IMG/VR virus record: IMGVR_UViG_3300048780_000317
Location: 1-22,967 of that record
Reading direction: 5' to 3' (one strand)
Origin: a virus
DNA length: 22,967 nt
The position numbers and the translations under genes are program-made. The notes under the pieces were generated by a model. It searched no databases. It had not been told where the DNA came from and saw only the letters and a list, made by a program, of their open reading frames with translations. Of this stretch, positions 1,611 through 20,769 are shown one piece after another (the first letter of the stretch is position 1; each line of letters begins with the position of its first letter).

Positions 1611-1642
1611 AGTTGTCCTCTGGGTTGCCTTGGTAAGAATCG

Positions 1643-7927: not shown

Positions 7928-9359
7928 AAACACGACGGCCGTAAAGGAACTCCGCAAGGCGAGAAAGAGCGTCTTTGAATTTCTGCCCTACCAGCAGGCG
8001 TTCCTGGCTGACCAGTCCCGCGTGCTGGTGGGTTGCTGGTGCAGGCAGGCGGGGAAAGACTTCACCGCCGCCGCCAAGGCTGTGACCAGCGCCATCAAGA
8101 CGGGCCAAAAATGGTACATCGTATCGATCACGCAGAGACAGGCGGACGCGACGTTCGACAAATGTAAGACGTTCGCAAACGCTTTTAAGATGGCGTTGAA
8201 AGCACAGGGCGAGATAACAGAGGAGGCGGGGCCGGAATACTACGAGCGAGACAAGGCGATTGACCAGATGTTCCGCTGCCAGGCGCGGACGCTGCACCTG
8301 CCCGGCGGCGGGTCGGTGACGGCATTGCCGGGCCGGGACCCCGACACCCTTGCGGGCCTCACCGGCAACGTCATATTCACCGAATTCGGCCTGTTCCCCG
8401 GCGGCGGATACGACCACTGGCGAGTGGTGTTTCCGCTATGCACGCGCGGGTACCAGGTGATCGTGATATCGACGCCGCGCGGCAAGAACACGAAGTTCTA
8501 CGAGCTGGTGTCCGACAGCGAGACCTATAGCGTTCACAAGGTGGACATACGCCGCGCGGTCGCGGACGGCCTGATCCTGAAGGACAACAAGGGCCTCCCG
8601 ACCAGCATCGATGTATTAAAGCGGCTCTATAACGATGAGATCGGCTGGCAGAGGGAGTTCGAGCTGCAGTTCTCGGGCGATCTTGTGGCACTGATCAAGT
8701 GGGGCCTGCTGGAAACCGCCGCGCTGGCGGGGGCGAAACTTCCGTTTGACTTTGCCGGCGTGGTCAACGGCGCCGGCTTTGACATGGGCGGCCGGTGGAA
8801 CAGACTCAAACCGATTGACGATGGACGATTGGAGATTGGTTGGGACATCGCCCGCAACCGGGACATATCCGCCCTGACCGTCAACCACTGCCACGTCAAT
8901 AAGCAACGAGACCTCCGCGCCCTGGTGATGATGGAGAAGACGCCGTTTGCGTTCCAGCGGATGATCGTGTGCCAACTGCTCGACACGTTTCCCTCGGCCG
9001 TGGGTTGCGGGGACGCCACGGGCCTGGGTATGGACTCCAATGAGACCCTATCGACCAGATACCACGGCCGATGGCAGGGCGTGACCTTCACGCAGACGGC
9101 AAAGCGGGAGCTTGCGAGCCTGCTGCTGACGGCCTTTGACGAGGGATCCCAGACGCTGCCGGCGATGGACGGCCCGTACAAGTTCATAGCAACAGACCTC
9201 TATGCGTTGCAACGAGAGGGCGAGAAGGAAAACCTGACAATCAGCGAATCGGATAACCCCTTGCTGCCCCAATCGCACTGCGATATCGCGATATCGTGCG
9301 GCCTGGCCCGCAAGGCGGGGCAAATCGCGGGCAATCATTTTTTCGCGGACGCCGTTTAG
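7911..9359 (+). CDS. Large terminase, Mu gp28-like
   Basis: This 482-residue protein has both terminase domains. The ATPase half has an adenine-binding Q motif (FLPYQQAF, residues 24-31), a Walker A-like P-loop (CWCRQAGKDF, 42-51), a Walker B strand ending in Glu158 (NVIFTEFGLF), and motif III (ISTPRG, 186-191). The nuclease half has the RNase H-like acids D312 (GWDIARNRD), D368 (GCGDATGLG) and D458 (HCDIAISCG). It should power packaging and cut the DNA; in Mu this means headful packaging of host-flanked DNA. The usual Walker B Asp before the Glu is Thr here, and the P-loop Thr/Ser is Asp. A 7-bp repeat encodes residues about 301-311, just before the first nuclease Asp. Confidence 0.9.
   Translation: MAALAENTTAVKELRKARKSVFEFLPYQQAFLADQSRVLVGCWCRQAGKDFTAAAKAVTSAIKTGQKWYIVSITQRQADATFDKCKTFANAFKMALKAQGEITEEAGPEYYERDKAIDQMFRCQARTLHLPGGGSVTALPGRDPDTLAGLTGNVIFTEFGLFPGGGYDHWRVVFPLCTRGYQVIVISTPRGKNTKFYELVSDSETYSVHKVDIRRAVADGLILKDNKGLPTSIDVLKRLYNDEIGWQREFELQFSGDLVALIKWGLLETAALAGAKLPFDFAGVVNGAGFDMGGRWNRLKPIDDGRLEIGWDIARNRDISALTVNHCHVNKQRDLRALVMMEKTPFAFQRMIVCQLLDTFPSAVGCGDATGLGMDSNETLSTRYHGRWQGVTFTQTAKRELASLLLTAFDEGSQTLPAMDGPYKFIATDLYALQREGEKENLTISESDNPLLPQSHCDIAISCGLARKAGQIAGNHFFADAV
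8813..8840. repeat. In-frame heptad repeat inside the terminase nuclease domain
   Basis: There are four tandem 7-bp units: GATTGAC, GATGGAC, GATTGGA, GATTGGT. They encode PIDDGRLEIGW, directly before catalytic Asp312. Twenty-eight bases of a 7-bp period pass through all three codon phases, so the peptide is not itself repetitive. Confidence 0.7.
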
Positions 9360-9391
9360 TGGTCAGTGACAGTGGACAGCGATCAGTGACG
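9358..9391. repeat. Heptad repeat spacer, AGTGGTC family (terminase to portal)
   Basis: The units are AGTGGTC, AGTGAC (one base short), AGTGGAC, AGCGATC and AGTGACG. The repeat starts within the TAG stop of the terminase and ends eight bases before the portal ATG. It fills the spacer and leaves no recognisable ribosome-binding site. Confidence 0.75.
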
Positions 9392-9398
9392 ACCAAAA

Positions 9399-11858
9399 AT
9401 GAATGAAGACACAGCAATAACCGAGATGCAAAAGAGCTACCAGGCGTGGGTAGACAGCCACGTGGCCAAGGATTATATTCCCTCGGCGGAACTGACGAGC
9501 TGGGGAAAGCTCTTCGTCACGGGCACCGAGGGGATGATGTACGGCCAGCAGATCAACGAGCCGCTGGACCCGTACGCACAGTCGCTGTGGGTGAATCGCT
9601 GCGTCACGGCGATCCACACGGCAGTGGTGGGGACGCCGATCAGGCTGACGCGGGCCGCCCTGGAGAGGCAGTTCTCGTCTAAGAGCTACCAGGTCCGCTT
9701 TGGGCGCATGGCGCAGAGCCGCCTCAAGGCGATGGATGGCCGGCGCGGCCTGGTGGTCGGCAAGGAGCAGGAGGGTGAGATCGTCGAGCAGGGGCCGGCG
9801 TTTGACCTGCTGGCGCAACCAAACCATTACCAGGACTGGCCCGCCTTCATCTCGTCGATTGTAGGTTACTTCAAGCTCCGGGGATCAGTCGCGGCGGTCA
9901 ATACGAACGAGGCGCCTTACGGCAATGAGTGGCACCCGATCGATGGCAAGTACATCAAGCCCCGGTTCGAACATGATGCCCAGGGCCTGCCGTTCCTAAT
10001 AGGCTATATTTACAAGCCCAAACACAGCGGCATCGAAATACCTTTTCTGCCTGAAGAGGTCCGCTACTGGCATACGTGGAGCGACAAGGACCCGTTCACG
10101 GGCCAATCGCCCATCGAGCCGGCGAGATACTCGATCGCAACCGATTTTTCCGCCAGCCAGTTCAACGCCTCGGCCCTTGCCAATCATGGCGAGCCGGGCA
10201 TCATCTACATCTTCCCGCAGGGCATCGACGCGGAGCAAAAGAAGGACTTCTACGAGCAAGTCCGCCAAAGATGCCAGGGACCAACGAGATCGATGCGCAG
10301 CCTGGTCGTCGGCGGGGACCTGAAAATCGAGTCGCCGGGGCGGAGCTTCCCCGATCTTCAGTTCGACGAGGGCAAGACGCGATGTGCGCTGGAAATCTGC
10401 TGCAATTTCGGCGTGCCCCCCGTTGTCGCTGGCTGGGTACAGGCGTCTGGAGAGGCTACGGCGTATATCGCCGAGATGCGGAGACTCTTCTACGAGGCGA
10501 CGATCTTCCCGCTCCTCGAAACCCTCCTGCCGGGCATCCAGTACATGGTCGCGCAGGTAGAGGCTAACGCGGTAGTCTTCTGGCACGTCGAGGAACTGCC
10601 GATCATCCAGGCCGCGCGGCTGTCGCGGACGGCCCAGGCCAAGGACTTCGCGGCCATGGGCTACCCGGTCAACATGATCAACGACAGGCTCGATATGGGC
10701 ATGCCCGAGCTCTCGTGGGGCGACGAGGGCACGCTTGCCCAGGGACTTGTACCGGCTGACCTCCTAATGAGCGGCGGGGATCTGCCGGCAATCGATGAGG
10801 GGCCGACGCCGGCGCCCGATGACATACCGCCCGATGAGCCGGGAAATCAAGTCGGGGAGAGGGGCCTTCGCCAAATGGCGGCTACGGCCGCCCAGGAGGG
10901 GCGGGCGATGCAGAAGGCCTGGGAGGCGGCCGTGGGCGAGAAGTCGTTCCTGGACGCTGTGTGGCAGGCGTGGGCCAGATCCTGGAACCCGATAGCGGAA
11001 GGCTTTGGACGGACTTTACGGCAGCGATGCCTGGTGCAGGAACGGCAGGTGATCGCGGCGCTGAAACGAGAATTGCCGGAAGTGAAGACGCTGGACAGCG
11101 GCCGGGGGCCGGTGGTCACAAAAGACGACGGCATTATCAGCAGGGTCCTCTTGACCGTGTTCGGCAACGTCGAGGACAAGAAGGCGTGGCGGGCGCGGGT
11201 ACGCGTCTTTGCCCAGGACGCGCAAGAGCTTGGCTTGCGCCAGGCACTGGCCGAGTCAGGGCTCGCGGGCGAGGAACTCGACGAGGCGGTCCAGCGCATA
11301 CTCTCCAACCCCGCCATCGTTCACACTCTCAATAGCGACGTGATCCTCGTATCCACCAAGATTGACGACGGCACGCGCAGGATCCTCAAGGACAACATTT
11401 CGGCCGGGCTGCGGGCGGCGGAGGGCGTCAATAAGATCGCCGACCGCGTCCAGGCGGCCATGGGCAACAGGCGAGCGGCCGCCGTGGCCACAACCCGCAA
11501 CGCCATCGGCCAGGTAATGAGCGCCAGCCGCCATGAGGCGGCCTTGACATGGGCGACGCACAAGAAGTGGGTACACTCGCGTGGTCGCGGCATCCGCCGC
11601 CCCGAGCACATAGCGGCCGAGACGTTCTACGCCGCGAACCCGATCCCCATCGAGCAGCCGTTCATCGTGGGCGGCGTGCCCCTGATGTACCCGCGCGACT
11701 TTTCCACGGGCAACTACTCCGAGACGATGAACTGCCAGTGCCTCGACGTGTACATGCGGCTGGCGACGGAGGGGAAGGCGGATGGCCTGGCGGCGGTGAG
11801 GGCGCGAGACTTCTACAGCCGCGAAAAGATGATCGCGGCGCGGGCCAAGAAGAATTGA
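9399..11858 (+). CDS. Portal protein fused to a Mu F-like minor head protein
   Basis: This 819-residue protein joins two roles. Residues about 55-445 resemble HK97-type portals, with the hallmark FDEGKTRCALEICCNFGVPP at 322-341. The portal is the dodecameric ring at the packaging vertex. After a Pro/Asp-rich linker (about 466-484) comes a helical region and then a Mu F-like domain (about 590-787). That domain has AVATTRNAIGQ (695-705), KKWVHSRG (722-729), R734 with H737, PFIVGGVPLMYPRDF (754-768), and the closing NCQC (778-781). Mu carries these as separate genes (gp29 and gp30/F). The ATG at 9399 follows a heptad repeat and has no evident Shine-Dalgarno. The protease gene begins about 40 bp downstream. 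Confidence 0.87.
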   Translation: MNEDTAITEMQKSYQAWVDSHVAKDYIPSAELTSWGKLFVTGTEGMMYGQQINEPLDPYAQSLWVNRCVTAIHTAVVGTPIRLTRAALERQFSSKSYQVRFGRMAQSRLKAMDGRRGLVVGKEQEGEIVEQGPAFDLLAQPNHYQDWPAFISSIVGYFKLRGSVAAVNTNEAPYGNEWHPIDGKYIKPRFEHDAQGLPFLIGYIYKPKHSGIEIPFLPEEVRYWHTWSDKDPFTGQSPIEPARYSIATDFSASQFNASALANHGEPGIIYIFPQGIDAEQKKDFYEQVRQRCQGPTRSMRSLVVGGDLKIESPGRSFPDLQFDEGKTRCALEICCNFGVPPVVAGWVQASGEATAYIAEMRRLFYEATIFPLLETLLPGIQYMVAQVEANAVVFWHVEELPIIQAARLSRTAQAKDFAAMGYPVNMINDRLDMGMPELSWGDEGTLAQGLVPADLLMSGGDLPAIDEGPTPAPDDIPPDEPGNQVGERGLRQMAATAAQEGRAMQKAWEAAVGEKSFLDAVWQAWARSWNPIAEGFGRTLRQRCLVQERQVIAALKRELPEVKTLDSGRGPVVTKDDGIISRVLLTVFGNVEDKKAWRARVRVFAQDAQELGLRQALAESGLAGEELDEAVQRILSNPAIVHTLNSDVILVSTKIDDGTRRILKDNISAGLRAAEGVNKIADRVQAAMGNRRAAAVATTRNAIGQVMSASRHEAALTWATHKKWVHSRGRGIRRPEHIAAETFYAANPIPIEQPFIVGGVPLMYPRDFSTGNYSETMNCQCLDVYMRLATEGKADGLAAVRARDFYSREKMIAARAKKN

Positions 11859-11860
11859 AT

Positions 11861-11888
11861 ATTTGAGATTTGAAATTTGATATTTGAA
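11861..11888. repeat. Heptad repeat spacer, ATTTGAR family (portal to protease)
   Basis: There are four near-identical units: ATTTGAG, ATTTGAA, ATTTGAT, ATTTGAA. It is strongly AT-rich against GC-rich neighbours. It begins two bases after the portal stop codon, and the protease ATG follows at 11901. Confidence 0.8.
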
Positions 11889-11900
11889 GGCAGACGAAAA

Positions 11901-12677
11901 ATGGCAAAACATGTGGAAAAAAGCTTCGGACAACTGATCGTCAAGATAACCCCCGCCAAAGAGGGCAGCAATTATGACCAGGACTTCATCTGCTCGACCG
12001 ACTGCGTTGACCGCTCCGACGAGACGATCGACCAGGGCGGATGGATGCTCGACTCCTTCCGCAAGAACCCGGTCTTCCTGGCCTGCCACAAATATCAGAC
12101 AGACAGCGGCAGTTCCCCCGTGATCGGATCGTTCCGCAATATCGACGCCACGGATGGCAATCTGCGCGGGCAGGTGAAGTTCGCGGCGACGCCACTGGGG
12201 CAGGAATATAAGAGCCTCTACGCCGATGGCCACATGCGGGCGGTCTCGGTCGGATTCATCTCGCACCAGCCCGAGCACGTCACTGACAAGGCGACGGGCA
12301 AGAAATCCCTCTGTCATAAGAAGAACGAGCTCCTGGAGGTGTCGGCGGTTCCGGTGCCGGCCAATCCCGAGGCGCTGTCGCAGATGGGCTTTTTACAAAA
12401 CGCGGCTAAGGCCGAGTTGACGGCGGTTGTCGCGGACGCCCTCACCAAGGCAATCGAGAAGCGGGATGCCGACGTGAAGGAATTCATTCAACAACAGATT
12501 GACGAACTTAAATCAATGATCGAGGAGCGATCTTTTGCGAATCCCACGCCTGATCTTTCGGGCCAGGCTCGCGGCGCCCAGGGCGGCGCCGGCGATGACG
12601 AAGGCTCGGATGCGGCGGCGGGAAATCAGGCCCTGATCTATGCGGCAAAGAATTTGCGAAAGGCATGCACCTACTGA
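11901..12677 (+). CDS. HK97-type prohead protease
   Basis: This 258-residue protein belongs to the caudovirus prohead protease family, which cleaves the scaffold and capsid N-termini during head maturation. The core (residues about 10-165) has H63 in FLACHKY, S116 in GHMRAVSVGF, and the family signature ELLEVSAVPVPANPEA (143-158). The C-terminal 90 residues are a helical, charged segment (AELTAVVADALTKAIEKRD) and a Gly/Ala-rich tail, probably scaffold-like. The ATG at 11901 was chosen because AAGG lies about 10 bases upstream; a TTG at 11877 lies inside the repeat spacer. It is placed between portal and capsid as in HK97. Mu itself uses a different protease (gp32/I), so this head module is HK97-like. 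Confidence 0.87.
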   Translation: MAKHVEKSFGQLIVKITPAKEGSNYDQDFICSTDCVDRSDETIDQGGWMLDSFRKNPVFLACHKYQTDSGSSPVIGSFRNIDATDGNLRGQVKFAATPLGQEYKSLYADGHMRAVSVGFISHQPEHVTDKATGKKSLCHKKNELLEVSAVPVPANPEALSQMGFLQNAAKAELTAVVADALTKAIEKRDADVKEFIQQQIDELKSMIEERSFANPTPDLSGQARGAQGGAGDDEGSDAAAGNQALIYAAKNLRKACTY

Positions 12678-12686
12678 CCACTAACA

Positions 12687-12714
12687 AAGGCCCAAGGCCC
12701 AAGGCCGAAGGCTT
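12687..12714. repeat. Heptad repeat spacer, AAGGCCC family (protease to capsid)
   Basis: The units are AAGGCCC, AAGGCCC, AAGGCCG and AAGGCTT. The array directly abuts the GGAG ribosome-binding site (12715-12718) of the capsid gene. Heptads thus fill most of the spacer from stop codon to Shine-Dalgarno. Confidence 0.8.
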
Positions 12715-12724
12715 GGAGCAAAAA

Positions 12725-13105
12725 ATGATTACGAAACTTTTCAAGATGATGCTGGCTACGATGTCGCTTGCCGCCATGCCGGTCGAGAGCCGGGATGCGG
12801 CAGCGGTCGCAAAGCAATTGGCGGAGATCGAATTGCTCATCAAGAGCGAGGAATTCAAGGGCCTCGACGGAGGCGGCGAGGCGGTCAAGCTCACGGGCGA
12901 AATCGCCAACCTCAAACAGTCGCTCACCGTCCAGGACGCCGAGTTGAAGCGGATACAAAAGATGGGAATGACCTTTAAGGAAGGACAGATCATCGACTGG
13001 TCCAGCGCACACAGGCTGGAGATGCTGTCGATACGGCGGTCGTTTGACTCCGACGAGAAGGCCGAGAGATTCGGATCATGGTTCCTGGCCACCGCGCCGG
13101 AATGA
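12725..13105 (+). CDS. Major capsid protein, N-terminal fragment (delta/scaffold domain)
   Basis: This 126-residue product looks like the N-terminal delta domain of an HK97-type major capsid protein. It has a helical coiled-coil region (VAKQLAEIELLIKSEEFKGL, then AEIANLKQSLTVQD-like helices), followed by KAERFGSWFLATAPE and a stop. GGAG lies 6 bases before the ATG. In intact capsid genes this region leads straight into the N-arm and E-loop. Here the frame ends, and the next piece of capsid lies one frame away and much further along the protein. I infer an internal deletion with frameshift. The fragment may still be made, but it cannot form a capsomer alone. Confidence 0.65.
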   Translation: MITKLFKMMLATMSLAAMPVESRDAAAVAKQLAEIELLIKSEEFKGLDGGGEAVKLTGEIANLKQSLTVQDAELKRIQKMGMTFKEGQIIDWSSAHRLEMLSIRRSFDSDEKAERFGSWFLATAPE

Positions 13106-13674
13106 TCATGGCGTATGCGTTCGCCCGGGCACTTGACCAGGCGATGCTCCTGGGCGATGGCACGGCCGCGTATGGCAACATCACGGGCATCCTGAACCAG
13201 ACCACGGTGGTGTCGGCGCCGGCGTTGACGGCCGGGCACACCACGGTGGCTACGCTGGATATGTACGACTGGCTGTCCGTGGATCCGGCACTGGCGGCCG
13301 AATACGCCCGAAAGAACGCCAGGTGGATTCTATCGGGCACGGTTTCGGCGAGCGCCCGAGCTATGCGAACGGGACTGGGCGTCAATCCGATTTGGGAGCG
13401 TGGGGCGACGGCCGAGGAATCGACGCTGTGCTACTACCCCTACACGTTCTGCCAGGAAATGCCCGCCGCCGGCTCGGTCGGGGCAGGTCAACCCTACGGC
13501 GTCTTCGGCGATGTCCGCCGGGCGATGATGCTGGGCATGCTGGACAACATCGCAATCGACACCAGCGACCAGGCGATGTTCCTGTCGGATTGCACAGTGG
13601 TTCGCGGCCTGGCGTACGCGGACATCGAAATTACCGACGCGAAGAGCGTCGTGATCGCAAAGACCCATGCCTGA
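13078..13674 (+). CDS. Major capsid protein, C-terminal fragment
   Basis: This is a 198-residue open frame that matches the last part of HK97-fold capsid proteins. It has the P-domain helix and loop AYAFARALDQAMLLGDGT followed by GNITGIL, then the A-domain (ARKNARWILSGTVSASARAM), and the closing strands (YGVFGDVRRAMMLGML, DQAMFLSDCTVVRGLAYADI). HK97 gp5 has GDGT near residue 280 of 385, so here roughly 100-150 residues (N-arm, E-loop, spine helix) are missing between this and the N-terminal piece. The frame is -1 relative to the N-terminal piece, and the two overlap by 28 bp. No ribosome-binding site is clear for the ATG at 13078. It is best read as a broken gene. Confidence 0.7.
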   Translation: MVPGHRAGMIMAYAFARALDQAMLLGDGTAAYGNITGILNQTTVVSAPALTAGHTTVATLDMYDWLSVDPALAAEYARKNARWILSGTVSASARAMRTGLGVNPIWERGATAEESTLCYYPYTFCQEMPAAGSVGAGQPYGVFGDVRRAMMLGMLDNIAIDTSDQAMFLSDCTVVRGLAYADIEITDAKSVVIAKTHA

Positions 13675-13699
13675 TGATGGGTAGCCTCTTCTTGGCCCT

Positions 13700-13733
13700 T
13701 CTGGCTCGAAGGCAGGGATGGCTTCGAGCCAGA
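13700..13733. repeat. Perfect 12-bp hairpin after the capsid gene
   Basis: TCTGGCTCGAAG (13700-13711) and its exact complement CTTCGAGCCAGA (13722-13733) enclose a 10-base loop. It lies 25 bases after the capsid stop in a 180-bp spacer. No T-run follows on either strand, so it is not a classic Rho-independent terminator. An mRNA-stabilising or processing hairpin is possible. Confidence 0.7.
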
Positions 13734-13755
13734 GGGGGAGAAGGGGAGATTGGAA

Positions 13756-13778
13756 ATCTCAAATTTAAGATTTGAGAT
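13756..13778. repeat. AT-rich inverted repeat with heptad periodicity
   Basis: ATCTCAAAT (13756-13764) and ATTTGAGAT (13770-13778) form a perfect 9-bp stem with a 5-base loop. The units are the same ATTTGAG heptads as in the portal-protease spacer, here in both orientations. It lies about 75 bp before the next gene. Confidence 0.65.
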
Positions 13779-13854
13779 ATCAGATGAGAAGATGCACAAC
13801 GGTTTATTAACGGACGATTAAGCGGCTTTTGAAAACCTTTTTTGGAGATAAAAC

Positions 13855-14970
13855 ATGAAGAGCCACAAGTTCGGAATCGGATCATTGTTCCTGGCGGCGG
13901 TACTGATCGTCGCGTCGTTCATCGTGTATTTTGAGGACGCGACCAATTACGCCCAGGGCGCTCTGCCCGTCGCGGGCGCGACGAGCGTATCCGCAGACGG
14001 TTCGGGCGTGACCACGCACCGATTCATCAAGTTCGCCTCGGCCGGCGTCATATCGACCGCCGCGCTGGCTAGCGACGACATCGTCGGCGTCTGCGAGCAG
14101 ACGGCGACGGCAAACCAGATCACCAAGTACGCCCCGCCCGGCACGATGACCACGCTGGACTCCGGCGCGGCGATCGCCGCCGGCAACAAGCTCACGTGCC
14201 TGGGGGACGGAACAGGCAAGGCGACGCCTGTGTCCAATGCAACCGCCAGTCCGACCACAGTGGGCGCCATAGCGCTTAGCTCCGACGCCACGGGCACGGG
14301 GACGGTGCTGGCGATCGTCGTCCCCAGCGTGCTGGGCTCGCCGGCGAGTTACGCCGGAAGCGTGGCCGTGGGCACGTCCCTGACCGTGGGTACGACCTGC
14401 GGGATCTCGACCAATGCCACCGTAGGCGGCACGCTCACCACGACCGGCGCGGTGACCAACAACAGCACGACGGCGTTAAATGGCAGCGCCACGCTTGGGA
14501 CGAACAATAAGCTGCTGTTCAGGGAATCGACGGAATACGTCTACAGCGACGCAGCCAACAGCCTGACGATCGCGGCGGGCACGCGGATCAAAACAAGCCT
14601 GCCGATCTTTTCCGCGAGTCAAACATTTGTGACAATTGCCGGTCCGACGCTAAGCTTGAACGTCAACGACTCGGGCAAGGTGTTCAACGTGACCGGCACC
14701 GCGGTCATCACGCTGCCGGCCACGTCGTCGGGGGTCAGCTATACATTTTTCTGCGATGGCGCCGCCGGGACCGTGCAGATATCCATCGCCCCCGCCGCCG
14801 CCGACGGCATCAGCGGGCTGGGAACGACCGGCACCGTGAACAAGGCGCTCATCAATACCCTGTCCACGGCCAATCGCGGTGACCTGCTGACCATTAGCGG
14901 GTCAGGCACCACCGGCGCGACGGGATGGCTGATAGTCCGCCAGGTGGGCACCTGGGCGTGGGCCTCCTGA
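13855..14970 (+). CDS. Capsid decoration-like (DUF2190-like) protein with beta-rich extension
   Basis: This is a 371-residue protein. Residues 8-27 form a hydrophobic helix (GIGSLFLAAVLIVASFIVYF) after a basic start, like a signal anchor, which is odd for a virion protein. Residues about 34-160 resemble DUF2190 capsid cement proteins: HRFIKFASAGVISTAALASD, GVCEQTATANQITKYAPPG, then AAIAAGNKLTCLGDGTGKA. The C-terminal 200 residues are Thr/Ser/Gly/Ala-rich beta repeats (GSVAVGTSLTVGTTCGISTN, ATVGGTLTTTGAVTNNSTTA), as in head fibres or tail spikes. It has GGAG 7 bases before the ATG. Its place after the capsid supports a head-surface role; the fusion and the N-terminal helix leave doubt. Confidence 0.6.
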   Translation: MKSHKFGIGSLFLAAVLIVASFIVYFEDATNYAQGALPVAGATSVSADGSGVTTHRFIKFASAGVISTAALASDDIVGVCEQTATANQITKYAPPGTMTTLDSGAAIAAGNKLTCLGDGTGKATPVSNATASPTTVGAIALSSDATGTGTVLAIVVPSVLGSPASYAGSVAVGTSLTVGTTCGISTNATVGGTLTTTGAVTNNSTTALNGSATLGTNNKLLFRESTEYVYSDAANSLTIAAGTRIKTSLPIFSASQTFVTIAGPTLSLNVNDSGKVFNVTGTAVITLPATSSGVSYTFFCDGAAGTVQISIAPAAADGISGLGTTGTVNKALINTLSTANRGDLLTISGSGTTGATGWLIVRQVGTWAWAS

Positions 14971-14971
14971 T

Positions 14972-14999
14972 AGTGATCAGTGGCCAGTGGTCAGTGCCG
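14972..14999. repeat. Heptad repeat, AGTGGTC family
   Basis: There are four units: AGTGATC, AGTGGCC, AGTGGTC, AGTGCCG. They begin one base after the stop codon of the decoration-like gene. A run of eleven A residues (15002-15012) follows. Confidence 0.75.
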
Positions 15000-15029
15000 C
15001 TAAAAAAAAAAACTACCACCCGCCAATCG

Positions 15030-15052
15030 GCCCCCGAGCTTTTAGCGGGGGC
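15030..15052. repeat. GC-rich hairpin 1 of the 14971-15190 spacer
   Basis: GCCCCCG (15030-15036) pairs with CGGGGGC (15046-15052) around a 9-base loop. The 220-bp spacer has no plausible gene. It carries this and two further hairpins in a row. Confidence 0.6.
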
Positions 15053-15092
15053 TGCGGCGGCGATAGGGTAGGTGCATTGCAGTCTGCGGCGA

Positions 15093-15109
15093 GGCCGGAT
15101 GGTCCGGCC
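15093..15109. repeat. GC-rich hairpin 2 of the 14971-15190 spacer
   Basis: GGCCGGA (15093-15099) pairs with TCCGGCC (15103-15109) around a 3-base TGG loop. This is a compact and very stable stem. Confidence 0.65.
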
Positions 15110-15110
15110 C

Positions 15111-15148
15111 ACCGCCGGGCCGCTGACGGTATCCGACGGCCCGGCGGT
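15111..15148. repeat. GC-rich hairpin 3, perfect 12-bp stem
   Basis: ACCGCCGGGCCG (15111-15122) pairs exactly with CGGCCCGGCGGT (15137-15148) around a 14-base loop. It starts two bases after hairpin 2. A short T-run (15162-15166) lies 13 bases beyond the stem, too far for a standard terminator. The next gene starts at 15191 with AGGAG 6 bases upstream. Confidence 0.7.
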
Positions 15149-15190
15149 GAAGTTGAGACGATTTTTGGCAAAGACATTTAGGAGCATGAA

Positions 15191-15481
15191 ATGGCAAAAG
15201 AGACACAGCAGCAAGGACCGCCCCAGTCGGCGGTCGAACCGATCGTAATCTGCACCATCCGCAAGGCCGTGAGCTACGGCGGAATATATCTGGCGCCTCG
15301 CATGGACGGGACGAGGCTCATCCCCCTGGCGGACGTTCCCCTGCCTCGCGAGTTCGCCGAGAGGTTCACGCCCGGCGCCGTCGAGATCACGGGCGAGTCG
15401 GAGATGACGGCCAACGAATTGCCCGAGGCGTTGAAGAAGGCCGTCGCGGCCATGGAAGCGAGCGCCAAACCCAAGGGCTGA
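15191..15481 (+). CDS. Small hypothetical head-region protein
   Basis: This is a 96-residue soluble protein. The core (PIVICTIRKAVSYGGIYLAP, then LIPLADVPLPREFAERFTPG) looks like a small beta fold. A charged helical tail ends in lysines (LKKAVAAMEASAKPKG). AGGAG lies 6 bases before the ATG, one of the clearest ribosome-binding sites in the late operon. It lies between the decoration-like gene and another small gene, and before the connector, so a minor head or neck role is possible. I recognise no family. Hairpin-rich spacers flank it on both sides, which is unusual within a late operon. Confidence 0.65.
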   Translation: MAKETQQQGPPQSAVEPIVICTIRKAVSYGGIYLAPRMDGTRLIPLADVPLPREFAERFTPGAVEITGESEMTANELPEALKKAVAAMEASAKPKG

Positions 15482-15516
15482 CAAGACGCATAGCGGGGCG
15501 TTCCCGCTTGTCCCCC

Positions 15517-15549
15517 GTGGGCGTGGTTCGCTCTCCTTTCCACGCCCAC
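15517..15549. repeat. Perfect 10-bp hairpin in the 15482-15646 spacer
   Basis: GTGGGCGTGG (15517-15526) pairs with CCACGCCCAC (15540-15549) around a 13-base loop. It overlaps the next hairpin by two bases, so the two full-length stems cannot form together, though trimmed versions could. That arrangement could act as a switch, but none is shown. Confidence 0.65.
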
Positions 15550-15587
15550 GTTCGCGGCGATCCGAGGCATGGGATCACCGCGAACGT
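15548..15587. repeat. Near-perfect 16-bp hairpin in the 15482-15646 spacer
   Basis: Bases 15548-15563 pair with 15572-15587 with one mismatch (C/A) and an 8-base loop. The outer arm is ACGTTCGCGG/CCGCGAACGT and the inner arm is GATCC/GGATC. No T-run follows. The stem is strong enough to be a rho-independent core, an RNA-processing site or a REP-like element. Confidence 0.7.
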
Positions 15588-15601
15588 GTAAACGAATGGA
15601 C

Positions 15602-15629
15602 AGCGGTCGGTGAACAGCAGTCAGCGATA
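15602..15629. repeat. Diverged heptad repeat, AGTGGTC family
   Basis: The units are AGCGGTC, GGTGAAC, AGCAGTC and AGCGATA. They lie between the 16-bp hairpin and the GGAG ribosome-binding site of the gene at 15647. Confidence 0.65.
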
Positions 15630-15646
15630 ACGGATGGAGAACGAAC

Positions 15647-15943
15647 ATGGCAAGTGTAATCGTGCAGGTGCAGGCGATGGTGGCGATGAAGGATAACGGC
15701 AAGAGGCACAATCCCGGTGAAGTTTTTGGCATGGAGAAAAGCCTGGTGCCCGCCCACGTGGCGGCCAAACAGGTCCGCGTGATGCAGGCCCCCGCCGCCG
15801 CTGCCGCGCAGGGCGCGCCTGGGCCCACTACCGCAAATCCCGCGTTGACCGCGCCTGCGGCTGGGACGCCGGCCGCCGGCCATGCGACGATCGTGCCGGC
15901 CGCCAGGCCGTTGCCCGGGCCGAGGCCCGAACCGCAAAAATAG
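15647..15943 (+). CDS. Small hypothetical head-region protein with Ala/Pro-rich tail
   Basis: This is a 98-residue protein. The first 48 residues form the likely folded part (SVIVQVQAMVAMKDNGKRHN, then PGEVFGMEKSLVPAHVAAKQ), with a beta strand, a turn and a helix. The C-terminal half is a disordered Ala/Pro/Gly stretch (APAAAAAQGAPGPTTANPAL onward). GGAG lies 7 bases before the ATG. Small proteins of this shape often lie between capsid and connector genes in HK97-type head modules. No family is claimed. Its TAG stop is the first part of the next heptad repeat. Confidence 0.6.
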   Translation: MASVIVQVQAMVAMKDNGKRHNPGEVFGMEKSLVPAHVAAKQVRVMQAPAAAAAQGAPGPTTANPALTAPAAGTPAAGHATIVPAARPLPGPRPEPQK

Positions 15944-15990
15944 TGGTCAGTGGACAGTGGTCAGTAAAGACCGCGTGCACTGACCAGTGG
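15942..15990. repeat. Hairpin/heptad element, copy A
   Basis: Heptads AGTGGTC, AGTGGAC, AGTGGTC and AGTAAAG begin inside the upstream TAG stop. TGGTCAGT (15958-15965) is complemented by ACTGACCA (15979-15986), giving an 8-bp stem. The layout (GTGGTCAGT, AAAGACCGC, TGCACTGACCA) is shared with two spacers near 20200 and 20730. Confidence 0.75.
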
Positions 15991-16001
15991 ATTGGAGCAC
16001 A

Positions 16002-16088
16002 ATGGGCAAAGACTGGAAAGACAAGATCGTCAGTAAACCCAAGCCGGCGCCGGTGACCAAGCCGATCAAGGCGCCGGTGACGAAATAG
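16002..16088 (+). CDS. Very small Lys/Pro-rich protein
   Basis: This is a 28-residue open frame starting MGKDWKDKIVSK and ending in a Lys/Pro/Val repeat (KPAPVTKPIKAPVTK). GGAG lies just before the ATG (four bases between), and the next gene starts 8 bases after its TAG. Good ribosome-binding-site spacing and tight packing support translation. At the DNA level GGCGCCGGTGAC occurs twice (around 16045 and 16070), so it contains its own short direct repeat. It could be a real tiny virion or regulatory peptide, or a leader for the connector gene. Function is unknown. Confidence 0.5.
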   Translation: MGKDWKDKIVSKPKPAPVTKPIKAPVTK

Positions 16089-16096
16089 GTGAAGGA

Positions 16097-16840
16097 ATGC
16101 TTTGCACGCTCAATCAACTGAAGAGCAGACTGAAGATCGACCCGGCCGATACGACCGACGACCTTGCGATGACGGGCCTGATCCAGGGCGTGTCCGCACG
16201 CATGGCATCATCGGAGGGCGCGGGGCGCGAACTCGAGCTTACGACGATCACGGAGATATTCTGCCAGGACGACGCCCGCTCGACCATGCTCTGGACGCGG
16301 GCGTGGCCGGTCGTGTCGGTGACATCCATCCTCGAAGCAATGTGGGGCGCATTCGATTCGGCGACCGGGCTAATAGAGGCCGGGCCGGGCGTATCAGCCC
16401 CGGACTTCTACGTCAACCACGAGACGGGCAGGATCACCCGCGTGGCCCTCATGTGGTTCTGCCGGCCGTTCGAGCAGCAGGTGATCTACCAGGGCGGCTG
16501 GACGGCGTGCGAATACTGGCAGTCGGGCAATAGCTACGCGGCCGGCTACTTGGTCCAGACGGCGGGGAACGTATACCAGGCCGCCCAGGCGACCAGCGGG
16601 ATCCTCGTCCCGGGTGCCGACCCGACCAACTGGACGCTCTTGACCGGCCAGGTGCCCGCGCCGGGTGAGCTGGTCGAATGGTGCATCGCGCAGTCCATAA
16701 ACGACTGGCAACGCCGCGACAGGCCCGGGATGTCATCCGAAGGGGCCTCGGGGGCCTCGGCCTCGCAGTTTGGCCCCTATGGACTCCTGCCGGGCGTGGC
16801 GGCGGCCCTGAAGGGCGGCCGATATAGAAGAATCATGTGA
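16097..16840 (+). CDS. Head-tail connector (gp6-like) with inserted carbohydrate-binding-like module
   Basis: This is a 247-residue protein. The flanks match HK97 gp6-like connectors. The N-terminal helices (TLNQLKSRLKIDPADTTDD, LIQGVSARMASSEGAGREL) are followed by strands, including TRAWPVVSVTSILEA (67-81) and QQVIYQGGW (127-135), and a closing helix (PGELVEWCIAQSINDWQRRD, 189-208). Between strand and helix, residues about 139-182 form an extra module (YWQSGNSYAAGYLVQTAGNV, YQAAQATSGILVPG, NWTLL). Its Y-x-G-x-V, G-x-x-Y, SG-x-x-P and final W pattern is that of CBM5/12-like modules. Connectors form the ring under the portal. AGGTGAAGGA precedes the ATG. Confidence 0.75.
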   Translation: MLCTLNQLKSRLKIDPADTTDDLAMTGLIQGVSARMASSEGAGRELELTTITEIFCQDDARSTMLWTRAWPVVSVTSILEAMWGAFDSATGLIEAGPGVSAPDFYVNHETGRITRVALMWFCRPFEQQVIYQGGWTACEYWQSGNSYAAGYLVQTAGNVYQAAQATSGILVPGADPTNWTLLTGQVPAPGELVEWCIAQSINDWQRRDRPGMSSEGASGASASQFGPYGLLPGVAAALKGGRYRRIM

Positions 16841-16901
16841 CAGTGGTCGGCGGTCAGAGAAAGACAAAAGCAAAGACGCAAAAAGCGGCGTGTAAAAAAA
16901 A
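16841..16901. repeat. Short low-complexity spacer with AGTGGTC-like units
   Basis: Directly after the TGA stop comes CAGTGGTCGGCGGTCAG, then a purine-rich stretch with repeated AAAGAC/AAAGCAAAGACGC units, and a run of eight A residues before the ATG at 16902. No ribosome-binding site is evident. Confidence 0.45.
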
Positions 16902-17516
16902 ATGATCGGAAGCCTCGTTATAGTGAAAGTGGATAGCAAAAGCGGCGAGCTCGTTGCCCGCGACGCTCGGGCGGCGGCGGCGTTCCCGGCGGCGGTCATC
17001 AACGGGCTGCAGGGCTACGTCGGATCGGGCGCCTCAATGATCGCCGCATGGCTCCAATCGGGCGCGGGCGGATTGACCCTCCAGCATGGGATGGACGGCC
17101 TGGGGGGCTCGATCCAAGGTGTAATGATCGATGAGTCGATCCCGATGGCCATGCTGGGCGTGCCCTCGGACGCTCCCGCCGCCCCCTACGCCTACAAGCA
17201 GGAAGTGGGCGGCCCGATATACCCCAAGGACGCCAAGGCCCTGGCGATCCCGCTGACAGAGCAGGCGAGGAACGTATCGGGGCCCCGCGACCCGTCCATG
17301 GGCGACCTGGTGCTCGTCAAGAGGCCGGGAAAGCCGCCACTGCTATGCCAGATGATCGGCGACAAGAAGCTCCAGCCCCAGTTCGTGCTGGTGGCCAGCG
17401 TGACATTGCGGGCTACCCACTGGTTCAGCCAGGGCGTCGAACAGTTCCGTTCGGACATGCTGGCGACGTTCAACGCGGTGATGACCGCGTGGGCGAAGAC
17501 GTTTGGGGCGAATTGA
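16902..17516 (+). CDS. Probable neck or tail completion protein
   Basis: This is a 204-residue protein with no family I can name firmly. The N-terminal half is small-residue rich (ARAAAAFPAAVINGLQGYVG). The C-terminal half is the better conserved-looking part: AIPLTEQARNVSGPRDPSMG, LVLVKRPGKPPLLCQMIGD, and FVLVASVTLRATHWFSQGVE. This LxLVKxxGKPPLL and VTLxxTHWF pattern resembles Mu-type virion/tail completion proteins encoded between head and tail genes. Its place after the connector and before a tail-terminator-like gene agrees. There is no Shine-Dalgarno before ATG 16902, only an A-run. Its TGA stop is also the first unit of a TGAATAT heptad array. Confidence 0.6.
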   Translation: MIGSLVIVKVDSKSGELVARDARAAAAFPAAVINGLQGYVGSGASMIAAWLQSGAGGLTLQHGMDGLGGSIQGVMIDESIPMAMLGVPSDAPAAPYAYKQEVGGPIYPKDAKALAIPLTEQARNVSGPRDPSMGDLVLVKRPGKPPLLCQMIGDKKLQPQFVLVASVTLRATHWFSQGVEQFRSDMLATFNAVMTAWAKTFGAN

Positions 17517-17540
17517 ATATTGAATATTAAATATTGAAAG
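17514..17540. repeat. Heptad repeat spacer, TGAATAT family
   Basis: The units are TGAATAT, TGAATAT, TAAATAT and TGAAAG. The first TGA is the stop codon of the upstream gene, so the array overlaps coding sequence. The next ATG is at 17546. Confidence 0.8.
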
Positions 17541-17545
17541 ATCCG

Positions 17546-17980
17546 ATGGCCGACAAAATTTCAAACGCGGCGAAAATCATCCAGGAAACCCTTGAGGCGC
17601 AGGGCCAGGCGGTCTGGCGGAAGGTGTTCGGTTCGGAGATGAATCCCCTCGCCCAGGAAGTCCTTCCCGCCGCCGCGATATCGTTCCCGACGTTCTTTCA
17701 CGAGGGCGGGACAGAGTGCGAACCCGAGTGGGAGGCGGTGATCCTGATACAGGTGGTGGATAAGGTGCGCAAGAAGGATGCCCTGGCGGCGGTCTGCTCG
17801 ATGGTCGGGCAGATCGAGGCGATGATCGGCCAACTGCCCCATGACGGCACGCTGGGCGGACATGTGGACAAGTTGCGGGCGATGCCGTGGTTCGAGGCCA
17901 CGTCGGCGGACGTGCAGCGGTGCGGCGCCTCGTGCACGATGTCGTTTCACACGGTTGGAACGCTTTTGACTGGTGATTAG
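17546..17980 (+). CDS. Probable tail terminator-like protein
   Basis: This is a 144-residue protein. An N-terminal helix (ISNAAKIIQETLEAQGQAVW) is followed by strands (EVLPAAAISFPTFFHEGGTE, EPEWEAVILIQVVDKVRKKD), a helix (ALAAVCSMVGQIEAMIGQLP) and a final strand (VQRCGASCTMSFHTVGTLL). This alpha/beta order, its size and its position directly before the tail tube gene fit tail terminator proteins, which cap the tube and join it to the head. The ATG at 17546 was taken; the frame also allows a TTG at 17534 inside the repeat. AAAGA lies close upstream. The assignment rests mainly on gene order. Confidence 0.55.
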   Translation: MADKISNAAKIIQETLEAQGQAVWRKVFGSEMNPLAQEVLPAAAISFPTFFHEGGTECEPEWEAVILIQVVDKVRKKDALAAVCSMVGQIEAMIGQLPHDGTLGGHVDKLRAMPWFEATSADVQRCGASCTMSFHTVGTLLTGD

Positions 17981-18005
17981 CGGTTAGTGATTAGTGGTTA
18001 GTGGT
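17975..18005. repeat. Heptad repeat spacer, GRTTAGT family
   Basis: The units are GATTAGC, GGTTAGT, GATTAGT, GGTTAGT and a partial GGTC. The array covers the last sense codon and TAG stop of the upstream gene. AGTGGT (18000-18005) can pair with ACCACT (18012-18017) in a 6-bp hairpin. The next gene keeps a GGAG at 18028. Confidence 0.8.
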
Positions 18006-18038
18006 CGGAAAACCACTCGCCACGCATGGAGATAGAAT

Positions 18039-18896
18039 ATGGCAGCCGGCGACAAGATTTTTCAGGCGCGGTATCTCGAAATTGGGGCGTCCCAGATAGC
18101 GGGCGTGGTGGCGGCGAAGATCAATACCGCGTTCACCGGGCGGGAGGATCCCGGTGCGGCAGGCTCGCCTGGCCCGGCCGGGCGGATTGTCGGCCATCGG
18201 CGGATCACCGTCGAGGCGTACGCCATACACGAGTCCATCATGGTGGCCATGGGCGTGTCTTTTAACGGGACGGCCGTTGCGGGGGCGACCTATGCGAGGA
18301 TCACGCCGTCGACGGTTGAGCGGATCGACCAGGGCGTGGCGGCCTGGCCGGGGGATGCGGGCGCGATCCTGACGCGCAAGATGCTGGCTGTGGAGATATA
18401 TGGCAACCAGTACGCGGCCCTGATGGCGATGATCGGAGAAACGGCCGCGAACGTGGCCGTCGCCGTCCTGGACAACGACAGCGCGGCCCAGACGGTGACG
18501 GTGACCAACGTCTATTTCTCCGAGGCGATCAGTCCGGTGGACATTCCCGAAAAGGACGCCGGGGGCAAGCTCGCCCCCTACGGGATCCGCGGGTGGGTGA
18601 ACTGGGGCGGGGCGGACACTTTTGCGACGGTATTGACCTCGACATCCGCGGGGGCGTTTGGCCTGCTGGCTATCCTGGGCACGGCGCAGGCCAATGCCGT
18701 CATCGGTACGGTGGGCGCGGGCGGGGCGGCCGAGAAGATCACGGTCAAGAACGTCACCTGGACAATGGTGACGAGCAACATCGAGATCCCGGCAAACGAC
18801 GCGGGCGGAAAACTCGCCCTCTTTGGCGTGCGCGGGTACGCGGCGTGGGCAAGCACCGATACGCTGGCGACGATGATCGTTGCGGCGGCGGATTAG
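18039..18896 (+). CDS. Probable major tail (tube) protein with internal duplication
   Basis: This is a 285-residue protein, beta-rich overall. Residues 39-49 form a short collagen-like run (GAAGSPGPAGR). Two segments of about 50 residues, 149-199 and 230-280, are related. The cores are IPEKDAGGKLAPYGIRGW and IPANDAGGKLALFGVRGY, preceded by AQTVTVTNV and AEKITVKNV. About 17 of 31 core positions are identical. The location between the terminator-like and tape-measure-like genes and the beta content fit a tube protein, though the duplicated C-terminal region could be an added surface domain. GGAG lies 7 bases before the ATG. No sheath gene is adjacent, in line with a non-contractile tail. Confidence 0.6.
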   Translation: MAAGDKIFQARYLEIGASQIAGVVAAKINTAFTGREDPGAAGSPGPAGRIVGHRRITVEAYAIHESIMVAMGVSFNGTAVAGATYARITPSTVERIDQGVAAWPGDAGAILTRKMLAVEIYGNQYAALMAMIGETAANVAVAVLDNDSAAQTVTVTNVYFSEAISPVDIPEKDAGGKLAPYGIRGWVNWGGADTFATVLTSTSAGAFGLLAILGTAQANAVIGTVGAGGAAEKITVKNVTWTMVTSNIEIPANDAGGKLALFGVRGYAAWASTDTLATMIVAAAD

Positions 18897-18936
18897 TTAA
18901 TTGGTTAATTGGTCAATTGGTTAATCGGTTAACTGG
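18897..18936. repeat. Octad repeat spacer, TTAATTGG family
   Basis: There are five 8-bp units in a row: TTAATTGG, TTAATTGG, TCAATTGG, TTAATCGG, TTAACTGG. The array begins immediately after the TAG stop and ends 9 bases before the next ATG, leaving no clear ribosome-binding site. Confidence 0.85.
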
Positions 18937-18945
18937 ATCGAAACG

Positions 18946-20169
18946 ATGGCTGATGAACTGAAAATAAATGTCTCCGTGCCGGGCGCGAAGGACGCCGCAC
19001 AGGACCTCAAGGGCGTGGCCGCAGCCGAGGGCGAGGTCACCGGCGCCGCCAAGGCCCAGGGCGACGCCCACGGGGAAAATGCCGCCGGCGCCGAGAAAGA
19101 CTCCCTGGCCACGGAGGCGCTGCGGATGCGAAAGCGCTCGCTCCTAATGGAGCTCGCGGCCCTCAATCCCGAATTGGGCGCGGCAGGCAGGCTTATATCC
19201 GAGCTCTCCACCGCGGAAAGCGGCTCGGCGATGGGGGCGGCCATCCTGACCGCGGGCGTGGTTGCCGCCGCCGCCGCGATCGAATACCTGATTTCCAAGC
19301 AGGAGGAGTTGACGAAAAAGGCCGACAAGGCGGGCGCATCGCTGAAAAAGGAGGCCGATCAATTCGTCGAGTGGGGCGATGCCATCGACGCCGCCCGGCA
19401 AAAGGCGGCGGGAACTGGACAGAAGGTCAGCTCGACCCCGACGCCGGAGATCGAGCGAGCGGCATTTGGAATCCAGAAGGACCTGGGGATCACGGACGAG
19501 CAGCGTAAGCGGCTGGGCGTGATCATGGGAATGGGCGACCTGACGCACGACCAGCAGGTGGCGGCCGCGAAGGCCATTGTCGCCCAAAACGGGTTGCCCG
19601 AAGATCCGATGGCGGCGTATCAGACCATCAAGATGGGCGGTGGCGGGCGGGACGCGGATCGGCTGTTCAACGAGGACGTGGCCCGCAACCCGGCGGCATA
19701 TGCGGCGCGGAAGGTCGCGGCCGCAGGCCACGCCGTGGGCGGCAGCGAGCGCGCGATGACGCAGAAGGACATCGAGGATATCGAGGACTCGATCTCGGCC
19801 CGGGAGAACGCACGAGGCATAACGCATGACAGGAAAGATATAAATAGCTTCATCCTGCAAATTGCCCAGGGGATTGTGAGCGAGACAGCCACGGCGAATT
19901 TTGAGCATGATTATCCAGAGGCAATGAATATCCCTGTCGGTTATCGGACGGCCAATGCGGCCAACGCGGCACGCTTCGCCGAGGCAATGAATATCCCTGT
20001 CGGTTATCGGGGCATCCTCCCGGATGAAACTGTGGGCCCGAATTCGTCGGAAGTGCACAACTCGCGTCCTCTCCAGGTGATCGTCCACGGGGACGTGATC
20101 AATGGGACGAGCTTCAAGAATTCCGACGCCCGCCGGGCCGGCGTGCCACAGCCGCAGGTGCAGCAATGA
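18946..20169 (+). CDS. Short tape-measure-like tail protein
   Basis: This is a 407-residue protein. The N-terminus (ELKINVSVPGAKDAAQDLKG, then alanine-rich charged helices) resembles tape-measure starts. A hydrophobic helix lies at about residues 94-113 (MGAAILTAGVVAAAAAIEYL). Helical charged regions follow, and a C-terminal segment ends in SRPLQVIVHGDVINGTSF, also typical of tape-measure ends. If it sets tail length, the tail would be short. No overlapping tail-assembly chaperone pair precedes it, which is unusual for a long-tailed phage. A 30-bp direct repeat lies near residues 325-355, in a locally AT-richer stretch (about 19815-20010). The ATG at 18946 lacks a clear Shine-Dalgarno. Confidence 0.6.
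   Translation: MADELKINVSVPGAKDAAQDLKGVAAAEGEVTGAAKAQGDAHGENAAGAEKDSLATEALRMRKRSLLMELAALNPELGAAGRLISELSTAESGSAMGAAILTAGVVAAAAAIEYLISKQEELTKKADKAGASLKKEADQFVEWGDAIDAARQKAAGTGQKVSSTPTPEIERAAFGIQKDLGITDEQRKRLGVIMGMGDLTHDQQVAAAKAIVAQNGLPEDPMAAYQTIKMGGGGRDADRLFNEDVARNPAAYAARKVAAAGHAVGGSERAMTQKDIEDIEDSISARENARGITHDRKDINSFILQIAQGIVSETATANFEHDYPEAMNIPVGYRTANAANAARFAEAMNIPVGYRGILPDETVGPNSSEVHNSRPLQVIVHGDVINGTSFKNSDARRAGVPQPQVQQ
19918..20010 (+). repeat. 30-bp perfect direct repeat, 63-bp period, in frame
   Basis: Bases 19918-19947 and 19981-20010 are identical. The period of 63 bp is 21 codons, so both copies encode EAMNIPVGYR. The intervening 33 bp is Ala/Asn-rich (TANAANAARFA). This looks like a recent tandem duplication of a 63-bp unit whose spacer has since diverged, or an insertion. 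Confidence 0.9.
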
Positions 20170-20179
20170 GTAGGAAGTG

Positions 20180-20257
20180 GGCAGGGGTCAGTGAACAGTG
20201 GTCAATAAAGACCACGCAGGCGCCCCGCTTGCACTGTCGCTGACCACGGATCACTAT
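20180..20257. repeat. Hairpin/heptad element, copy B
   Basis: GTGGTCA (20198-20204) is complementary to TGACCAC (20241-20247). GTGGTC (20198-20203) can instead pair with GACCAC (20210-20215). Long blocks, such as CCCGCTTGCACTG and ACCACGGATCACTAT, are shared with copy C at 20700-20769. It fills the spacer right up to the ATG at 20259. Confidence 0.8.
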
Positions 20258-20258
20258 T

Positions 20259-20696
20259 ATGGGCGAGAACGTACAAGGCGACGATCTGTTCGGCTCCGGC
20301 GGCCACGCCTGGCAGTGGGAGCGGCGCAATCGCGCCGCCAAGCTCATCACCAGCGTGGGGATCGACGGGGCGGGCAGGATCGCCCTGGGAAGCCATGAGC
20401 GGCGGTGCCAGATAATCGGCACGCACGGCTCGCCGGCGGCGCTATTGATCGGGAACGGGGCAACGAAGGACCTGGCGGATACGAGCCTCCAGATCCAGAT
20501 TGCGGCGATAGAGGCACTGGCCGACAGCGGTGCTGCGGGCGCGTGGCAGGATGACACGGGCCTATCGGGCACGCAGCTCGTTGTCGAGAGCTTTGTTCCA
20601 GTAGGGCACAGGCTGTATGGGTGTGACGGAGCCAACTGGCAGGCGTGGCTGTACTACAAATGCGTGCTGATAGATTTGACGGGCAACTGGACTTGA
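20259..20696 (+). CDS. Hypothetical distal tail-region protein
   Basis: This is a 145-residue protein, likely beta-rich. It starts MGENVQGDDLFGSGGHAWQW and has strands such as AKLITSVGIDGAGRIALGSH, QIIGTHGSPAALLIGNG and LVVESFVPVGHRLYG. It ends with aromatic-rich ANWQAWLYYKCVLIDLTGNW. The position between the tape-measure-like and hub-like genes is that of a distal tail adaptor, but no family motif is evident. The ATG is preceded by CACTATT with no Shine-Dalgarno. The next gene is preceded by a nearly identical sequence, so both may share the same initiation mode. Confidence 0.55.
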   Translation: MGENVQGDDLFGSGGHAWQWERRNRAAKLITSVGIDGAGRIALGSHERRCQIIGTHGSPAALLIGNGATKDLADTSLQIQIAAIEALADSGAAGAWQDDTGLSGTQLVVESFVPVGHRLYGCDGANWQAWLYYKCVLIDLTGNWT

Positions 20697-20699
20697 AGA

Positions 20700-20769
20700 A
20701 GTGGACAGTGGTCAGTAAAAACCGCACAGGTGGCCCGCTTGCACTGACCACGGACCACGGATCACTATC
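20700..20769. repeat. Hairpin/heptad element, copy C
   Basis: GTGGTCAGT (20708-20716) and ACTGACCAC (20743-20751) form a perfect 9-bp inverted repeat with a 26-base loop. A second ACCACGG follows. It matches copy B over most of its length and ends directly at the ATG at 20770. Confidence 0.85.

Follow-up and report, generated by a model that had tools for sequence, protein, structure and literature searches.

Heptanucleotide arrays in the late-gene spacers of a Mu/B3-like transposable phage and their counterparts in Planctomycetota genomes

The window and its late-gene spacers

The 22,967 bases analysed here, referred to as the window, form an IMG/VR virus record. Two minus-strand genes encode a MuB-like protein (537-1670, phrog_296 match) and a MuA-like transposase (1643-3790, phrog_310 match, 2e-72), while others specify the small and large terminase, prohead protease, capsid and head-tail adaptor, as well as a portal fused to a head-morphogenesis domain. 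Matches at 24-31% linked the terminase to known transposable phages, among them Pseudomonas phage B3. The combination of MuA-like transposase, MuB-like protein and a terminase-portal-capsid operon identifies the window, as judged from its gene content, as a Mu/B3-like transposable phage; the contig is possibly incomplete. The minus-strand gene pair (537-3790), that is, the transposable-phage nature of the window, was absent from the first-pass annotation of this DNA. Genome-resident relatives of the terminase were found in Phycisphaerales or Phycisphaeraceae MAGs (Planctomycetota), together with one distant Pedosphaera match, and point to a phycisphaerial planctomycete as the probable host. 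The major capsid is split over two ORFs (12725-13674) that meet in an ATGA overlap; in full-length relatives, residues 1-120 correspond to the upstream ORF and residues ~257-449 to the downstream one, so that about 137 codons are missing, reflecting either a deletion or an assembly fault.

The spacers between the late genes carry short tandem arrays. Matches at lag 7 in 13 late spacers numbered 414, against 279 +/- 14 in dinucleotide shuffles (z 9.6), and lag 14 gave z 5.9; the remaining lags from 2 to 20 all had |z|<2, so that no signal was seen at periods 5, 6, 8 or 9. Nine of the 11 period-7/8 arrays counted in the window (score at least 10) lay inside the late spacers, which make up 5.3% of it (binomial P 1.6e-10), and array density was 1.7 per kb of spacer. 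The features are as follows.

9358-9398, plus strand: spacer between terminase and portal, where degenerate AGTGGTC heptads overlap the TAG stop; in relatives the two genes overlap by 4 bp or are a short gap apart
11855-11888, plus strand: ATTTGA-type heptads at the portal-protease junction; relatives mostly overlap
12687-12712, plus strand: AAGGCCC heptads between the protease and capsid ORFs
13731-13785, plus strand: AGAAGGGG octads (2.4 copies) and a palindromic GATTTGA array, the 3' portion of a strong hairpin spacer (fold z -8.5)
14972-14996, plus strand: AGTGATC/AGTGGCC/AGTGGTC heptads at a TGA stop
15600-15632, plus strand: degenerate AGCGGTC-like heptads, seen in the sequence 120 bp after the stop
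15942-15991, plus strand: AGTGGTC heptads from within the TAG stop, and an inverted arm (CACTGACCAGT); hairpin -31.4 kcal/mol, z -6.7
16840-16857, plus strand: two degenerate AGTGGTC units
17512-17538, plus strand: ATTGAAT heptads across a TGA stop
17973-18005, plus strand: GTGGTTA heptads across a TAG stop
18892-18936, plus strand: ATTGGTTA octads across a TAG stop, self-complementary (fold z -4.7)
20169-20256, plus strand: degenerate AGTGGTC arm, core and inverted arm (GCTGACCACGGATCACT); hairpin z -4.0; homologous to the 20700-20765 spacer
20700-20765, plus strand: AGTGGAC/AGTGGTC arm, core and inverted arm CACTGACCACGGACCACGGATCAC
3789-3811, minus strand: heptad array at the 5' end of the MuA-like gene, on the early side

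The first-pass annotation had described repeats of 7-8 bp in at least twelve late spacers. Eight of the 13 junctions (after 11858, 12677, 14970, 15943, 17516, 17980, 18896 and 20696) were robust and three (after 9359, 16840 and 20169) degenerate, but two (after 13674 and 15481) differed from that description, and the octads reduced to a single true one among the listed junctions, after 18896. The array after 12677 begins 9 bp past the stop; after 20696 the forward arm is weak and the inverted arm (20742-20765) robust. Heptads were not found at the 13674 stop, where a large hairpin accompanies the octad and the palindromic array (the latter at 13754-13785), and the 15481 junction has just a degenerate AGNGGTC stretch 120 bp downstream. 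No exact AGTGGTCAGTGGTC occurs in the window, whose arrays are degenerate. The early operon, described as free of such spacers, was nearly so, the exception being the array beside the MuA-like gene.

Arrays and gene order in related phages

The window was compared with 35 viral relatives and several prophages, which were bimodal, some carrying 2 to 8 heptad arrays per 10 kb and others none. Each array-rich phage had its own set of unit families. On the terminase tree the rich and poor states were scattered, with 10 changes against a shuffled mean of 10.6, and at least seven of the 10 were forced by well supported branches; the array trait therefore does not follow phage descent. The window's portal and its 18039-18896 protein had no true relative among the viral contigs and, as its late genes have no close relatives, junctions were compared at 50-60% protein identity, using gene calls from a codon-score script that reproduced the window genes, although single boundaries may be off.

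At conserved adjacencies (terminase-portal, portal-protease and others) array-free relatives mostly had a 4-bp overlap or short gap, whereas array bearers had gaps of 33 to 97 bp or more, and the overall gap median was 63 in array-rich phages against 25.5 (P 8e-8). The first-pass annotation had proposed that the repeats are module-joining recombination sites, shared heptads providing microhomology for phage module exchange. The junctions largely refute this, as array frequency in array-rich phages was not in excess at non-conserved adjacencies (49/136 against 22/80 at conserved ones, P 0.23; with gaps of at least 15, 49/111 against 22/51, P 1.0), gene order at terminase-portal and portal-protease was kept although an array had been gained, and the same arrays occur in host chromosomes. 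Both the presence of an array and its unit varied at orthologous junctions. Given the wider gaps at conserved adjacencies and the lack of excess elsewhere, the arrays insert in or widen junctions and do not mark module joints. The points in favour of recombination sites, a homologous cassette common to three window spacers and a 72-bp copy-number difference between otherwise 99.9% identical phages, leave that proposal very improbable.

The cassette has an arm-core-arm layout and is common to 15942-16001, 20167-20258 and 20694-20769; in two of these spacers it runs on as far as the start codon (CCGCTTGCACTG...ACCACGGATCACTATYATGGG), as though duplicated inside the genome, and it had no match in isolated phages. 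The 72-bp tandem difference lies in a heptad region and separates contigs L188/L187/L194 from L200, which are otherwise about 99.9% identical. A comparison of near-identical phages for length changes in steps of seven yielded few indels, with this one tandem copy-number difference. Breaks between L012 and L013 and between L024 and L025 fell outside arrays. Several period-9 arrays in L001, L025 and L040 are probably coding repeats.

Units, placement and polarity in host genomes

Sampling of 397 genomes from the class and 294 from the phylum showed the pattern AGTGRWCAGTGRWCAGTG in 23 and 22 of them, respectively. Genomes bearing the window unit AGTGRWC (both strands) were scattered among Planctomycetota, with very high counts in few (G503, 258 matches; G560, 151; G044, 122; G433, 47; G095, 38; reversed control 0). 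The reversed control word was itself abundant in a few genomes (G008, G074, G524, G629), being a different heptad unit there. Two phage contigs (L007, L008), assigned to MAG G002 by binning and forming with it the only clear pairing of phage and host, carry GTRGTCM and GTTGATR units; G002 had 111 and 50 matches to these, spread over many contigs, while six of seven other genomes had 0 for both and G044 had 29 and 0. Where the genome was poor in heptads (G001, G003, G080, G235) its prophages were nearly heptad-free too. In the bearing host lineage the heptads are mainly intergenic and genome-wide. That host-derived repeats had entered the spacers, another first-pass suggestion, agrees with these shared units and with the scatter on the terminase tree, and it is well supported that the arrays are a host-lineage repeat habit also acting on resident phage DNA, and not a phage invention.

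The first-pass annotation had expected a host-wide habit to show equal repeat density in host intergenic DNA and no link to junction breakpoints. No such link was found and hosts share the repeats, but the densities are unequal: rich phages had 1.8 arrays per kb of spacer, and hosts 0.14-0.76 in fresh stretches (up to 1.0 in the first sample). The phage figure is 2-5 times that of the hosts sampled, rising to about tenfold in the G002 pair; part of the enrichment on the phage side is therefore not explained by the host-habit account and counts against it.

Arrays hug both spacer ends, in phages and in hosts. The first-pass statement that they begin at the upstream stop codon applied to about eight of the 13 window junctions and not to the remainder. 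Starts within 3 bp of a stop exceeded random placement in 14 array-rich phages (14 against 5.9 expected) and in host genomes (8 against 1.9); fresh host DNA gave 6 against 3.3, which is not significant alone (P 0.10). The arrays are also polar, with the G-rich strand pointing outward from the gene. This was first spotted in the discovery hosts (G-rich to C-rich 24:3 beside stops, 22:7 beside starts) and then checked on 800 kb of new host DNA, where the ratios were 32:6 (P 2e-5) and 18:7 (P 0.04) and the first arm was G-rich in 18:4. Pooled hosts, with one vote per spacer, gave 69:16 (P 5e-9), and spacers without a partner array 31:7. Octads were polar (28:5) and period-9 arrays were not (11:11); array-free spacers had no G/C skew of the outward kind, nor was outward polarity seen in arrays inside genes (7:13). 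An independent set of deduplicated viral contigs, chosen only for the window unit, gave 60:33 beside stops and 66:11 beside starts. Polarity was weaker in phages related through the terminase (42:25 per spacer, P 0.05; 42:15 within 30 bp, P 5e-4). Where an array has an inverted partner, polarity was gone more than 60 bp from genes, and it is therefore tied to the gene boundary.

Slippage alone does not predict polarity on both sides of a spacer, which is seen between convergent host genes too, and this counts against the host-habit account. Such polarity would suit dedicated host machinery acting at DNA or gene ends, which heals spacer breaks by extending both 3' ends with G-rich repeats before they are rejoined, as outward G-rich polarity and inverted pairs fit such head-to-head fusion. 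Yet the dozens of units (63 consensus units among 116 host arrays) are ill-suited to one templated enzyme, and polarity is lost beyond 60 bp in the very spacers with an inverted pair, making machinery of this kind very improbable.

With a period of 7 beyond chance and an intergenic, genome-wide distribution, the arrays belong to the heptanucleotide long simple sequence repeats (LSSR/STRR type). The STRR of heterocystous cyanobacteria are likewise tandem heptads with several units per genome, but of a different phylum, the likeness being one of repeat type. Heptanucleotides are the commonest class of long simple sequence repeat in most genomes and are, like those described here, lineage-specific (Mrazek et al. 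2007, as cited in PMC4679880); that survey covered prokaryotic genome sequences of 2007, and phages and gene-end polarity are unmentioned in the cited account of it. The Borg extrachromosomal element also has pervasive, fast-evolving tandem repeats but, as far as the account in PMC9879509 goes, these are virtually absent from its hosts, whereas in the present case the units are common to host and phage. TAACTGA repeats of Beggiatoaceae, Cyanobacteria and Bacteroidetes, which in BOGUAY lie mostly just before starts, resemble the present arrays in being short, intergenic (2-6 copies) and spread over many junctions (PMC4679880); they differ in consisting of one unit, not described in phages, and TAACTGA was not found among the units listed for phage and host arrays. 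The same review includes a proposal that polymerase slippage favours 7 nt, and suggests translational regulation (MacGregor 2015, PMC4679880).

The closest parallel is with the G-rich heptads of Xanthomonas (GGGAATC) and Nostoc (GGGGA(C/T)T), studied as quadruplexes (Rehm et al. 2015, PMC4692102). On the sense strand these lie no more than 50 bp from stops and overlap them, and on the antisense strand they occur in the 50 bp ahead of starts; they form convergent inverted pairs in Xanthomonas and are under-represented between divergent genes. Each genome has one unit with G-tracts, none are on plasmids, and phages are unmentioned. The present arrays share the period, the sense placement after stops and antisense before starts, the stop overlap and the convergent inverted pairs, but have dozens of units, mostly lack quadruplex motifs, occur in Planctomycetota and are abundant in phages. 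The first-pass statement that no phage system of this sort is described agrees with the literature found, although the anatomy itself is known from bacterial chromosomes (PMC4692102); no papers on heptad arrays in phages or Planctomycetota were found in the open-access literature searched.

Translation or G-quadruplex signals at gene ends, the former also raised in the first-pass annotation, would draw on two of these precedents, in that GGGAATC heptads of the same placement form G-quadruplexes (Rehm et al., PMC4692102) and TAACTGA heptads before starts are proposed translational regulators (MacGregor, PMC4679880). However, a quadruplex motif was lacking in 61 of 87 spacers from hosts and in 43 of 69 from phages, and polarity persisted in host arrays without any G2 or G3 motif (47:12, P 5e-6), so the G-quadruplex was rejected as a general reason for the arrays. 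Translation signals gained no direct support, since arrays lie mostly after stops and turn over at orthologous junctions, and signals of either type are very unlikely indeed. Stop-codon choice next to arrays was not clearly shifted towards TAG in either phages (P 0.06) or hosts (P 0.8).

Inverted arms and the origin of the arrays

The window spacers after 15943, 20169 and 20696 each contain two arms in inverted orientation, and therefore fold as hairpins (z -6.7, -4.0 and -1.7), a layout that the first-pass annotation had missed. An inverted partner was present in 22 of 41 spacers of fresh host DNA, against 8 direct copies, and in 39 of 96 spacers of the deduplicated viral set, against 16 direct. 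That set derives from AGTGGTC viruses, deduplicated for partner and polarity counts because the full collection is crowded with near-identical contigs; with those included, it comprised 415 arrays at period 7, and no more than 36 at other periods once multiples of 7 are set aside. The terminase relatives had no inverted excess (9 inverted and 9 direct partners among 57), so convergent inverted pairing is a feature of the hosts and the AGTGGTC viruses, and not of these phages. In L231, L221 and close relatives (IMGVR_UViG_3300044824_000335) almost all late spacers consist of an (AGTNNNC)n arm, a core and an inverted arm; within one phage population the core, AGTAAAGGCAAAAACT, has one orientation at some junctions and the opposite orientation at others.

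The main rival of the host-habit account is that the paired arms are selected RNA hairpins, long stems in the polycistronic mRNA that are cut by an RNase III-like enzyme, as in T7, or protect 3' ends, giving each late gene its own message. The excess of inverted partners in hosts and viruses, the folds of the window (z -6.7, -4.7 and -4.0) and the arm-core-inverted arm layout of almost every late spacer in a 31-kb phage contig all speak for this. In several genomes, moreover, arms within one spacer match each other better than arms of other spacers, although the pairs were chosen by complementarity; such matching may be a sign of selected hairpins, and would then count against the host-habit reading. 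But L231, with pairs chosen in the same way, had no within-spacer matching, many window arrays (11858, 15590, 16838 and 17514) have neither partner nor fold, the terminase relatives lack the inverted excess, and array presence and unit are not conserved at orthologous junctions. Selected hairpins are thus rather unlikely.

Set beside the observed position, period, host-wide occurrence, host-specific units, polarity and inverted pairing of the arrays, and their lack of a link to gene-order breakpoints, the favoured reading (probability about 0.68) is that the spacers carry a host-lineage heptad habit and not a phage device. On this reading, certain Planctomycetota accumulate heptanucleotide, rarely octanucleotide, tandem arrays between genes. 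The arrays often come as a pair of inverted arms, the unit set is particular to each genome, and resident transposable-phage DNA gains those units. Growth probably proceeds by slippage in 7-nt steps, together with direct and inverted copying of neighbouring or other spacers during replication or repair, the arrays inserting in or widening junctions that include former 4-bp overlaps. Purifying selection at coding ends would halt them, which helps to explain why arrays abut stops and end short of the next start. The polarity probably comes from selection on mRNA ends, which would purge G-rich arrays that resemble Shine-Dalgarno sequences ahead of starts, and C-rich arrays that load Rho behind stops. 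The arrays themselves presumably have no specific function. A stronger proposition, which is doubtful at present, is that some Planctomycetota run a process that lays heptads at gene ends, with the G-rich strand away from the gene and genome-specific units, acting more strongly on resident transposable phages; this would be a new mutational or repair process, or a new use of hairpin spacers.

What is new beyond the work of Rehm et al. is the occurrence in phages and in Planctomycetota, the dozens of units, and a polarity without G-quadruplex motifs, which argues against the quadruplex explanation. Heptad repeats have so far mostly been reported unit by unit; genome-specific units common to phage and host, with a measurable polarity at gene ends, turn them from anecdote into a testable process. 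Phages, with their fast turnover, offer a way of watching arrays arise, and the repeat repertoire may serve as a host-prediction signal for planctomycete phages.
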